DNA of 64,000 bases from assembly GCF_000284315.1 (NCBI RefSeq), contig NC_017094.1, positions 2,449,486 to 2,513,485 of the forward strand, given 5' to 3'. The notes below the pieces were generated by a model. It was given only the letters and a program-made list of their open reading frames with translations, did no database searches and had not been told where the DNA came from. Shown piece after piece: positions 32,647 to 53,470 of the stretch (its first letter is position 1; every line of letters starts with the position of its first letter). The stretch comes from Leptospirillum ferrooxidans C2-3. Its GTDB lineage: Bacteria > Nitrospirota > Leptospirillia > Leptospirillales > Leptospirillaceae. A program made the translations under genes and the position numbers.

Positions 32647-33774
32647 ATGGACATACTCTCCGGCATACGCATCGCCATTCCCGTTCTTCTGCTTTTACTG
32701 CCCGTTCCGAATGCGGCCTGGTCAAGCTCTCCTGCCCCGACCGGAACGGACAGTCAAAATGGGGCGCCTTCCAATATCCAGCCTCCCTCCGAGGATGATC
32801 TTCTCCCGGAGTTCGACAAATTGATGAAACCGGACTACCTCCCATGGGGACCATTGACAAGCGGCCCATTTTTTACAGGGAACGCCAATACCGTTCCGGT
32901 CGGATCCTTTTTTGTCCGCAGTGCCTGGTCCGACAATCTGATGTTTGGCCAGGGACTGAACCTGTCATCCATGAGCGGAGAATCGCGCATTGATGTGGGA
33001 CTTATGAAAAACCTTGAGATGGATCTGGTCGTCCCTGTCGGAATCAATTCCCAGGACAGCGCGGGAACAAACAACCAGAGAATAACCCGCTGGGGCGTGG
33101 GAGATACCGTGATCTTTTTCCGATACAACTTTCTATTGGAACACGATGTCTATTCCCTGTGGCACCGGCCATCCCTGACCATCGAACCACAGATTGTCCT
33201 CCCCACCGGGAAATACACGGAACTCAGCCCGACAGCCAACGGACTCGACCAGATGGGAAACGGAACCACCAACGAAGGGCTCTACCTGATCGCTAAAAAA
33301 AGTGCGAAACCCTTCCGTCTGTATTTCATGGCGGGAGATATTGTGCAAAACCCGGCCACAGTGGGCGCCAACTATGCCTCCAACAATGTCACCTTCACCC
33401 CCATTCCCTGTACGGCGTCCGGTCAATGCCAATCGGGCCGATTCAACATGGTGGACGGAAATCTTGTCGACTATTCGCTCGCTGTTGAACAGATTCTGAA
33501 CGACAACTACGGACTCGGATATGTCCTGGAGGTGGTGGGGCAGACACAAACAGGCTCAAGCCTTGTCTTCGGAAATGCGACAGTGCCTTCCTGGAGCTAT
33601 TTATGGGTCGCACCGTCCTTTGAAGTGAAGTATCCCAGTACCGGGAAAATGGCGGTCACATGGAGCGTCGGGGTAGCGTTACCCCTTTACCAGTCGAATA
33701 TTCCGCAGATGTATACCCCATTCGGAATGGCGACTGTCTGGTATAACGGTGTCTTCGGATACAGAGGAGAATAA
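32647..33774 (+). CDS. Predicted outer-membrane beta-barrel protein, unknown function (paralogue B)
   Basis: About 375 residues from ATG 32647, with AGGAGG at 32633-32638. Signal peptide IAIPVLLLLLPVPNAAWS. Mature features parallel the upstream gene: a lead-in with PVGSFFVRSAW, VGDTVIFFRYNF, AKPFRLYFMAGD, then YSLAVEQILNDNYGLGYVLEVVG and a C-terminal SVGVALPLYQ strand. The two are probably diverged duplicates. It precedes the TPR lipoprotein gene by one base. Confidence 0.65.
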   Translation: MDILSGIRIAIPVLLLLLPVPNAAWSSSPAPTGTDSQNGAPSNIQPPSEDDLLPEFDKLMKPDYLPWGPLTSGPFFTGNANTVPVGSFFVRSAWSDNLMFGQGLNLSSMSGESRIDVGLMKNLEMDLVVPVGINSQDSAGTNNQRITRWGVGDTVIFFRYNFLLEHDVYSLWHRPSLTIEPQIVLPTGKYTELSPTANGLDQMGNGTTNEGLYLIAKKSAKPFRLYFMAGDIVQNPATVGANYASNNVTFTPIPCTASGQCQSGRFNMVDGNLVDYSLAVEQILNDNYGLGYVLEVVGQTQTGSSLVFGNATVPSWSYLWVAPSFEVKYPSTGKMAVTWSVGVALPLYQSNIPQMYTPFGMATVWYNGVFGYRGE

Positions 33775-33775
33775 A

Positions 33776-34465
33776 ATGAATACCAAAAAAATGGAAAGAA
33801 AAATCCTTTACCGAGCCTTCTTTGGGTGTCTCATCCTCTTTTCGGTTCTTTCCGGTTGTGCGGAGACTCCCACAAAAACAGAATCCGCCTATTTGTTCGA
33901 ACGCGATGGCTACAAGGCCTATCAGGACCATCGGTGGGTCGAGGCGGAAAAGGATTACCGCCAGGCATCGAATCTTGATCCCCTGAACCTCAAGTACAGG
34001 AATAATCTTTCCATCATCCTTCACAGGGAAGGGAAGGAAAGGGAAGCGGGAAAGATTCTTGAACTTGGGCAGATGGAAAACTCCCCGGCAGGAGAACATA
34101 TCCTCATCAGCCGCGCCCATACGTTGCTGGAGCGACATCAATATCCACAGGCTAAAGAGATCCTTGACGGAATGCGCTTCTCCCGAAGCTGGCCCACAGG
34201 ATTCAAGAGGCTGATGGCCTATGCGGATATCCGAACCGGCCATTATGGAGAGGCATCCATTCTCCTTCACGAAATCATTCAAAAAAGACCCCGGGATCCG
34301 GTGGTATTGGGATATCTCTCAATTGTATACAAGAAAGAGGGAGCGGAGAGTCTGGCCCAGAAAAATTTCCAACGGGCCCTGGAGCTCTCCCGCTCATCGA
34401 GATTCCGGAAATCCCTCGCGCTTCTTTTTAACGAAACAGACAGCGGAAGTAAAAATGCTCCCTGA
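33776..34465 (+). CDS. TPR-repeat lipoprotein
   Basis: About 229 residues from ATG 33776 (GAGGAGAATAAA in front). A signal sequence ends in the lipobox FSVLSGC. The mature protein has several TPR units (DGYKAYQDHRWVEAEKDYRQAS, ILLHEIIQKRPRDPVVLGYLS, YKKEGAESLAQKNFQRALEL). TadD- or PilF-like lipoproteins have this layout, but no pilus genes are nearby. It is co-transcribed with the two barrel proteins, so it may assist their assembly. Confidence 0.75.
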   Translation: MNTKKMERKILYRAFFGCLILFSVLSGCAETPTKTESAYLFERDGYKAYQDHRWVEAEKDYRQASNLDPLNLKYRNNLSIILHREGKEREAGKILELGQMENSPAGEHILISRAHTLLERHQYPQAKEILDGMRFSRSWPTGFKRLMAYADIRTGHYGEASILLHEIIQKRPRDPVVLGYLSIVYKKEGAESLAQKNFQRALELSRSSRFRKSLALLFNETDSGSKNAP

Positions 34466-34562: not shown

Positions 34563-34611
34563 TACCATTTTTGTACCTAAATGGTACGATTGTTGACATT
34601 TTGTGATCACA
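34563..34611. promoter_or_regulatory. Two palindromes upstream of the nif promoter
   Basis: TACCATTT (34563-34570) and AAATGGTA (34579-34586) form an inverted repeat with an 8-base spacer. TGTGATCACA (34602-34611) is a perfect palindrome. They lie 53-101 bases before the -24 box, where enhancer or repressor sites are expected. A TTGACA sits between them at 34593-34598. No regulator can be named. Confidence 0.4.
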
Positions 34612-34663: not shown

Positions 34664-34679
34664 TGGCACGCTCATTGCT
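34664..34679 (+). promoter_or_regulatory. Sigma-54 (-24/-12) promoter of the nif cluster
   Basis: TGGCACG-CTCA-TTGCT matches the RpoN consensus TGGCACG-N4-TTGCW at every fixed position. Transcription would begin near 34690, about 200 bases before nifH. It requires an enhancer-binding activator, normally NifA, which is not encoded in this window. Confidence 0.93.
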
Positions 34680-34689
34680 AGTAATATCA

Positions 34690-35766
<1,077 letters not shown>

Positions 35767-51902: not shown

Positions 51903-52223
51903 ATGATGAAAATGGTTCGGGCAATTGTTCGTCCTGAGAAAGAAAACGACGTGGTTCTGGCACTGGAAGCCAAAGGTTTTCCCGCGTTGACAAAAACGCA
52001 TGTGTTTGGACGCGGAAAACAGAAAGGAATCACCGTTGGCCCGATCCATTATGACGAACTTCCCAAGGTCATGCTCATGATTGTCACAGAGGATGAATCT
52101 GTCCCTGTCATCATCGATGTCATACAGAAGGCAGCCTTTGTGGGCTACGAAGGGGATGGAAAGATTTTTGTCTCGCCTGTGACAGAAAGCTATACCATCA
52201 GAACCGGGGCAAAAGCCGAATAA
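51903..52223 (+). CDS. nifI1: PII-like nitrogenase regulator NifI1
   Basis: 106 residues. VRAIVRPEKENDVVLALEAKGFPALTKTHVFGRGKQKGI is PII-like, but the T-loop lacks the uridylylated tyrosine of GlnB, and YDELPKVMLMIVTEDE plus GDGKIFVSPVTESYTIRTG match NifI1. NifI1-NifI2 complexes switch nitrogenase off in response to 2-oxoglutarate and nitrogen status. Confidence 0.88.
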   Translation: MMKMVRAIVRPEKENDVVLALEAKGFPALTKTHVFGRGKQKGITVGPIHYDELPKVMLMIVTEDESVPVIIDVIQKAAFVGYEGDGKIFVSPVTESYTIRTGAKAE

Positions 52224-52250
52224 TCGCTTTCTGGAAAGGGAGATGTGAGC

Positions 52251-52676
52251 ATGTTGGTCGAAATAACTGCAATTTTGCGCCGTGACAAGGTGGGTCCCAC
52301 AATGAAGGGGCTCGATGCCATGGGTCTTGGGGCGATGACGCTGACAACGGTCAACGGACGGGGTCTCCAGGGAGGCAATGTGATGACCGATATCGATCGG
52401 GCGGTTCCCGCCGAATATGAGTCGGTCTCCAAAATTGTCAACCATCTGACCCCTGCGTCTTTCGCACTGTCCCATTCGTTGACCCGTCCCGTGTTCTGGA
52501 TTCCCAAGAGGATGATCCAGATCGTCGTTCCGACATCGATGAAAAACGAGGTGATCGATCTGATCATGAGTGTAAACAGGACAGGCTGGATGGGTGACGG
52601 AAAGATCTTCGTCAGCCCCATCGAGGAAAGTCTTCGTATCCGGACAGGTGAACACGGAACAGATTCCGTCTTGTAG
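52251..52676 (+). CDS. nifI2: PII-like nitrogenase regulator NifI2
   Basis: About 141 residues; ATG 52251 sits 8 bases after GGGAG and is preferred over GTG 52245. LVEITAILRRDKVGPTMKGLDAMGL, then an extended T-loop (about residues 40-75), then PKRMIQIVVPTSMKNEV and GDGKIFVSPIEESLRIRTGE. The long T-loop is the NifI2 hallmark. Pairs with NifI1. Confidence 0.88.
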   Translation: MLVEITAILRRDKVGPTMKGLDAMGLGAMTLTTVNGRGLQGGNVMTDIDRAVPAEYESVSKIVNHLTPASFALSHSLTRPVFWIPKRMIQIVVPTSMKNEVIDLIMSVNRTGWMGDGKIFVSPIEESLRIRTGEHGTDSVL

Positions 52677-52694
52677 ACCGGTTTGGCTTCTGAA

Positions 52695-52729
52695 ATGAAT
52701 ACCATTCTTACAAAATGGTATTCATTTTT
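52695..52729 (+). terminator. Intrinsic terminator after nifI2
   Basis: ATGAATACCATT (52695-52706) pairs perfectly with AATGGTATTCAT (52714-52725) around a 7-base loop, and TTTTT overlaps the end (52725-52729). It would close the nifH-to-nifI2 transcript and separate the ANTAR gene. Confidence 0.75.
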
Positions 52730-52750
52730 GTCTTTATGGATCCATTTCCC

Positions 52751-52785: not shown

Positions 52786-52849
52786 ATATTTCAAAGAAGG
52801 CATGGAACTTGCGATTATCTTCTGAATCTTCAACCGGAAGAGGCATATT

Positions 52850-53470
52850 ATGAGTACGATCGTTCTGGTTCAAAAAGACACCAATCGTCACACCGAAATC
52901 GTCCGGGAGCTGACCGCCATCGGAGTGGAGAGGGTTCTGGTCCTTTCACTTGAGGCCTTTCTTTCGAGGACGGACCCTGAGAGCGTGGACGGGATCCTTC
53001 TCGATCGGGGGGAATCCCTGGGAACCTTCTTTCAGATTGTCCAGAGTGTTGGAGGGGGCCCACCCATACCGATCATCCTTCTCATGGAGAGAAGGGATGA
53101 GCATGGGGGACGGGATTGTCTCACCGGAGTCATGCTGCAGCCGTTTTGCGACCTCCGCTTTGCCTCCCTGTTCAAGGAAGCCGTCTTCCATATCCGGGAC
53201 TTCTGCGCCGTATGCGAGGAAAACCAGAGACTCAAGGAGGAGGTGCTCGAGCGCAAGATCATCGAACGGGCCAAATGGATTCTGGTGAAGCAGGAAGGTC
53301 TTTCCGAGGACAATGCCTATCGTCGCATCCGGGCAGAAAGCATGAAAAAGCGACGGTCGATGAAAGATGTCGCCATCGACATTCTGGCCCGGTCAGGAGA
53401 GTTCGGAGAGGATCTGATGTACAGGGAGCATGAAACCGGTGAAAAAGGTCTCCCCGGCAATAGGCGCTAA
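52850..53470 (+). CDS. ANTAR-domain response-regulator-like RNA-binding antiterminator
   Basis: 206 residues. Residues 1-115 form a receiver-like domain without a clear acidic pair. A short coiled coil follows (CEENQRLKEEVLERKIIERAKW). The ANTAR domain is AKWILVKQEGLSEDNAYRRIRAESMKKRRSMKDVAIDIL. ANTAR proteins (NasR, AmiR, NasT, EutV) bind paired hairpins in nascent RNA and prevent intrinsic termination. A nif-leader terminator lies at 34806-34839, an obvious candidate target. The C-terminus is basic. Confidence 0.88.
   Translation: MSTIVLVQKDTNRHTEIVRELTAIGVERVLVLSLEAFLSRTDPESVDGILLDRGESLGTFFQIVQSVGGGPPIPIILLMERRDEHGGRDCLTGVMLQPFCDLRFASLFKEAVFHIRDFCAVCEENQRLKEEVLERKIIERAKWILVKQEGLSEDNAYRRIRAESMKKRRSMKDVAIDILARSGEFGEDLMYREHETGEKGLPGNRR

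Follow-up and report, generated by a model that had tools for sequence, protein, structure and literature searches.

Within the nitrogen-fixation (nif) cluster of Leptospirillum ferrooxidans C2-3 lies a gene for an ANTAR protein, and the question is which RNA this protein reads. The DNA analysed is a stretch of 64,000 nt (the window), and all window features given below are on its forward strand. The original prediction made the protein a candidate partner of the leader of nifH, in the same window. The phyletic match between the two, the conserved synteny and the invariance of the residues equivalent to the G4 pocket of EutV argue for this pairing. We give a probability of about 80% to the reading in which the nif-linked ANTAR protein serves the operon beginning with nifHDK as its dedicated transcription antiterminator. 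This reading draws on sequence, predicted structure, conservation and co-occurrence; from these we infer the binding, the read-through, the control by NifA and the signal. The promoter of the ANTAR gene, of sigma-54 type, the four cysteines of its product, the degenerate receiver and the long linker between the two leader hairpins were absent from the original prediction.

The nif-linked ANTAR protein and its gene

The open reading frame at 52850–53470 encodes a protein of 206 aa with a degenerate receiver-like N-terminal domain, a coiled-coil linker and, at the C-terminal end, an ANTAR domain (residues 127–179) that matches Pfam PF03861 with 63.6 bits (cut-off 27.3). The same Pfam family is matched in 9/9 aligned orthologs. 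The product is a member of the ANTAR family with a canonical ANTAR RNA-binding domain, and its gene does lie inside the nif cluster, with nif genes on both sides. By sequence, the closest solved structures are Rv1626, EutV, NasR and AmiR. By fold, they are RNA-bound EutV, EutV, Rv1626 and AmiR, with an AlphaFold2 model of modest quality (pLDDT 70.6, pTM 0.46, and mostly below 60 in the cysteine region).

In the EutV–RNA structure, Y164 provides the stacking surface for the flipped-out G4 of the hexaloop, R142, K149 and E160 hold this base, R168 and M172 are likewise at the hexaloop, and A1 of the loop makes no specific contact (PMC8934654). The EutV residues of the G4 pocket and loop, R142, K143, K149, E160, Y164, R168 and M172 (PMC8934654), correspond here to R135, K136, K142, E153, Y157, R161 and M165. 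All seven are invariant across the nif-linked orthologs (an alignment of 13 sequences, down to 51% identity). The equivalents of EutV N173 and R177 are not conserved (K166 and S170 here), and W143 stands where EutV, Rv1626 and NasR have a small residue.

In the receiver-like domain, D52 is retained, the conserved Lys (KPF) is replaced by Gln (QPF), the acidic pair is incomplete (QKD) and the strand-4 stretch contains no Thr or Ser. There is no Pfam receiver match in the protein, even at an E-value of 10, and the canonical set of a response regulator (phospho-Asp, acidic pair, switch Thr/Ser and conserved Lys) is not present as a whole.

The upstream neighbors of the gene are fdxN, nifW and two P-II genes; downstream are a Rop-like gene, nifV, a thiF-like gene and modA. 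Within the reach of the contigs, the nine loci examined all have the order nifB ... nifS ... SIR2-like, fdxN, nifW, P-II, P-II, ANTAR, Rop-like, nifV, thiF-like, modA. The SIR2-like gene (PF13289; 50199–51137) occupies the same place inside the nif cluster in 8/9 relatives' loci, the ninth contig stopping short. The two consecutive P-II genes (51903–52223 and 52245–52676) directly precede the ANTAR gene and are NifI1/NifI2-like in position, the second, with 143 aa, being the longer one; through them, nitrogen status could reach the ANTAR module. An AT-rich inverted repeat followed by T5 (52690–52732) separates the second P-II gene from the ANTAR promoter; it was seen in the window's genus only and may terminate the upstream nif operon.

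The ANTAR gene has a putative promoter of its own, with the -24/-12 elements of sigma-54 type (AGGCATGGAACTTGC, 52798–52812), 52 nt upstream of the start codon. Of the orthologs with upstream sequence, 12/12 have the pattern GG[C/T]A[C/T]-N5-TTGC at -51 to -54. We found no terminator between this promoter and the ATG of the gene.

The nifH leader: conserved hairpins and a predicted divergent target

The nifH operon starts with a sigma-54 promoter (TGGCACGCTCATTGC, 34664–34678), the only strict match in the 64-kb window; it is conserved in each of the 13 leaders that extend far enough upstream. Upstream, a degenerate NifA-type site GGT-N10-ACA is present at 34583–34598; in most relatives outside the window's genus, an intact TGT-N10-ACA stands at the aligned place, as judged by eye. 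A NifA scoring above the family cut-off is encoded in the genome. Downstream of the promoter comes P1 (34703–34730), a hairpin with an 11-bp stem and the hexaloop GAGGCA (34714–34719), as first noted from the sequence. A middle hairpin GGTCGG...CCGACC (34777–34797) follows; it is in the predicted fold of the window's leader and, with changed sequence, in that of most relatives. Next is the predicted antiterminator hairpin P2, GGC-GCTGAA-GCC (34799–34810), whose stem is invariant and whose loop is GC[T/C]GAA in the 12/12 aligned leaders. The intrinsic terminator (34807–34839) has a 13-bp stem, 96% paired, and a U-run kept in 12/12. For the first gene of the operon, nifH (34891–35766), the family search found homologs with 90%–99% identity in 13 relatives.

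The original prediction that P2 shares its 3′ arm with the terminator is confirmed: the 3′ arm of P2 and the 5′ arm of the terminator have the GCC at 34808–34810 in common, and P2 overlaps and excludes the terminator, as in an attenuator. On both strands of the 64-kb window, P2 is the only C-G-closed hexaloop of the type [AG]NNG[AC][AG] that overlaps a terminator. Against dinucleotide shuffles, the leader fold has z = -7.0. Sliding and shuffling controls favor the leader structure, in a set of 12 aligned leaders that form one family and whose kinship inflates the shuffle statistics.

A terminator at this place might merely insulate nif from upstream transcription, since the upstream gene (33749–34465) runs in the same direction, or protect the 5′ end of the mRNA, with no regulated antitermination. 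We regard this as very improbable: the terminator is downstream of the conserved sigma-54 promoter, in the path of the nif transcripts; being strong and kept at all readable nifH starts, it would shut nif off if nothing overrode it; and P2 is invariant.

The leader precedes every readable nifH copy in Leptospirillaceae (14 copies, 13 of them in full). In the aligned nifH upstream regions of the family, the promoter, the P1 and P2 hairpins and the terminator stay conserved while most of the leader sequence drifts. Two genomes, G008 (L048, L044) and G016 (L047, L038), contain two nifH copies each, every copy preceded by a leader of its own. The most diverged leader belongs to the copy on contig C68 of G008, and this copy lies within an open frame of 601 codons.

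Two hairpins with stems of at least 3 bp, six-base loops and C-G closing pairs can form in 12/12 aligned leaders, and the P1 hexaloop is present in the minimum-energy fold of the leaders. In P1, 7 of the 11 pairs have two-sided changes. The three pairs next to the loop are paired in 12/12 leaders, with an invariant closing C-G, while the second and third pairs from the loop vary among UA, UG, CG and GC. Since the fourth pair is broken in 7/12 leaders, the conserved unit is three pairs plus the hexaloop, the part that EutV touches; several caps consist of exactly this unit, followed by a mismatch.

The P1 loops are GAGGCA, GAGGAA, GATGCA, GACGAA and GCTGAA, and the P2 loops are GCTGAA and GCCGAA; in leader L047, the P1 loop GCTGAA is identical to its P2 loop. 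Both loops obey G-N-N-G-[A/C]-A. The G4 and A6 pointed out in the original prediction are joined by a G1, so that 24/24 loops have G at positions 1 and 4 and A at position 6, while positions 2, 3 and 5 drift.

The leader RNA is, from its sequence, a predicted divergent ANTAR target that departs from the canonical type in two respects, the A at loop position 1 and the linker. The missing A1, already acknowledged in the original prediction, proves general, with G at that position in 24/24 loops. In SELEX with NasR, A is preferred at loop position 1. The objection is a weak one because EutV makes no specific contact to A1 (PMC8934654) and the equivalents of its G4-binding residues are invariant here. 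A cross-loop pair between G1 and A6 may replace the structural role of A1.

The linker between P1 and P2 is 61–76 nt long in the leaders and contains the extra hairpin. Known linkers have 5–12 nt in E. faecalis and 2–25 nt in actinobacteria, and antitermination is harmed when the eutP linker is lengthened to 14 nt or by 20 nt. The middle hairpin shortens the distance from P1 to P2, with ∼30 nt of A-rich RNA still left. Either the two hairpins are bound successively over a greater distance, or P1 acts as a loading site. Inspection by eye of the A-rich linker, the middle hairpin and the GCTAGGTGAAGC stretch of some relatives revealed no conserved G4 hexaloop that could be a closer P1.

These features bear on another reading, in which read-through depends on another factor or on a ligand bound by the leader (riboswitch-like, an RNA chaperone or another antiterminator), the hexaloops being incidental. 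The leader is indeed large and structured, with a covarying P1 stem and, in addition, a middle hairpin, and so long a linker is atypical for ANTAR targets. However, the three fixed positions and the C-G closure are the same in both loops, several P1 caps stop after exactly three pairs, and a dedicated ANTAR gene co-occurs with nif. In addition, Rfam has no match in the nifH leader at E-values up to 5; at the gathering threshold, the whole window contains one tRNA and nothing else. We consider this reading improbable and retain the ANTAR protein as the likelier factor.

Co-occurrence, a second ANTAR protein and the proposed gate

Among the 21 genomes of the family, the nif-type ANTAR gene is found in 13/14 nifH-positive genomes and in 0/7 nifH-negative ones. 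The leader is present in every nifH-positive genome with an assembled nifH upstream region and in no nifH-negative genome. In the single mismatch, G006, the leader is present and the nif-linked ANTAR gene was not found; the absence is likely an assembly gap because nifW is missing too and the second nif P-II gene has no close match there.

A better hairpin pair elsewhere in the genome had been named as an observation that would speak against the pairing. In the genome of C2-3 (complete, 2.56 Mb), a genome-wide search with models of the nif leader found no second target comparable to it, and in the family together with 198 genomes of the phylum, the strong matches are nifH leaders only. The weak matches (at 1888729 of the same genome, on relatives' contigs and in two other Nitrospirota genomes) look like plain terminators without the pair of hexaloops, and we rejected them as targets. 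The one at genome position 1888729 (L122:1230-1408, L123) is a terminator after a hairpin, conserved between two genomes of the same genus and without an Rfam match; it is possibly an unrelated leader element.

The only other clear ANTAR protein of the genome has the arrangement GAF-GAF-ANTAR (431 aa, at genome position 1492850, L001:1474-2769), its N-terminal domains having been read by eye. Its ANTAR domain is strong (74.7 bits), and it occurs in nif-positive genomes including G006. The leader could thus be an ANTAR target with this protein as its partner, the nif-linked protein regulating something else. GAF-GAF-ANTAR is, however, the weaker candidate because it is also kept in nif-minus relatives, which are without the leader. 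Moreover, the nif-linked gene is syntenic with nif in 9/9 loci examined, and the searches with the nif-leader models found no second leader-like target. This assignment therefore seems improbable to us, and the nif-linked protein is preferred as the partner of the nifH leader.

The proposed mechanism of the nif-linked protein is as follows. Sigma-54 polymerase, most likely activated by NifA, would start just downstream of the promoter at 34664, and the first RNA made would be P1, the long hairpin capped by a six-base loop. In the absence of the ANTAR protein, the RNA downstream would fold into the 13-bp terminator and transcription would stop before nifH. An active ANTAR dimer would dock on the P1 loop and then capture the P2 hexaloop; P2 would take the GCC needed by the terminator, and the polymerase would read into nifH. 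With the terminator-free promoter of the ANTAR gene, NifA and sigma-54 would first make the antiterminator and then need it. Since the antiterminator and the attenuated nif transcript have the same promoter type, the arrangement would be a coherent feed-forward AND gate. Such a gate would also solve the start-up problem of a gene placed downstream in the cluster it controls.

The possible signal and the known ANTAR systems

Each of the 13 nif-linked ANTAR orthologs has exactly four cysteines and no others. In the window they are C90, C100, C119 and C122 (C-x9-C-x18-C-x2-C; codons within 53117–53215). With low confidence, the predicted secondary structure places them in strand 5, in the loop after it and at the start of the coiled coil, and we claim no cluster geometry because the AlphaFold2 confidence there is too low. 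EutV dimerizes through the region that matches these positions (PMC8934654). The pattern is absent from the more distant ANTAR proteins of the phylum found with the ortholog profile. The NifA of the genome has two cysteines only and is devoid of the cysteine motif of oxygen-sensitive NifA proteins. In oxygen-sensing NifA proteins, that motif is in a linker.

The degeneracy of the receiver makes classical phosphorylation an improbable activating signal. The four cysteines near the predicted dimer region suggest, as a reasonable hypothesis, a metal, Fe-S or thiol/disulfide switch. A more specific proposal, which we put forward tentatively and with more doubt than belief, is that the protein is a redox- or Fe-S-sensing antiterminator in which a cysteine cluster or disulfides control dimerization in place of receiver phosphorylation. 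Oxygen or iron–sulfur status would then gate nitrogenase at transcription elongation.

ANTAR control of nif is already known in Geobacter and predicted in Pelobacter and Desulfotomaculum; the novelty here lies in the lineage, in a degenerate sensor with four cysteines, in the variant loop and in the proposed gate of two promoters. In the literature searched, no paper has both "Leptospirillum" and "ANTAR." The antitermination of nitrogen fixation by GnfK/GnfR in Geobacter sulfurreducens was reportedly described by Ueki and Lovley in NAR in 2010, a study cited in PMC8164766. As there, an ANTAR protein would act on terminators of nif leaders in addition to sigma-54-dependent activation, the binding being predicted in the present case. 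GnfR is said to be a phosphorylated response regulator with the histidine kinase GnfK, whereas here the receiver is degenerate, four cysteines are invariant, and the gene is part of the nif cluster, next to two P-II genes and with no adjacent kinase gene.

AmiR and NasT have atypical receivers and no kinase drive, and NasR, NasT and AmiR are controlled by a nitrate-sensing domain or by the partner proteins NasS and AmiC. The nif-linked protein resembles these three as an ANTAR antiterminator, here a predicted one, of nitrogen-related genes. It differs from them in its novel set of cysteines, and we saw no partner of the NasS/AmiC kind.

In the predicted ANTAR nitrogenase regulons of Pelobacter carbinolicus and Desulfotomaculum acetoxidans, as in the present leaders, dual-hexaloop targets are found upstream of nitrogenase genes (PMC3369931). 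Those targets follow an A1/G4 model (PMC3369931), whereas both loops have G1 here and the linker has 61–76 nt. With EutV of E. faecalis and the eut leaders, the present system has in common the ANTAR fold, the G4-binding residues, the three-pair stem with hexaloop and a P2 that overlaps the terminator (PMC3369931, PMC8934654). Receiver phosphorylation is here probably replaced or lost, unlike in EutV, and loop position 1, linker length and target genes differ.

The leaders suggest that the published search rule, with A1 and a short linker, can miss real targets. The proposed pairing would extend ANTAR control of nitrogenase to the Leptospirillaceae, iron oxidizers common in acid mine drainage, as a compact and testable AND gate of sigma-54 start and antitermination. 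It would place a second lock, possibly redox-sensitive, on the known control of nitrogenase. If the cysteines do sense redox, transcription of nitrogenase would be tied to oxygen through RNA and independently of a kinase.
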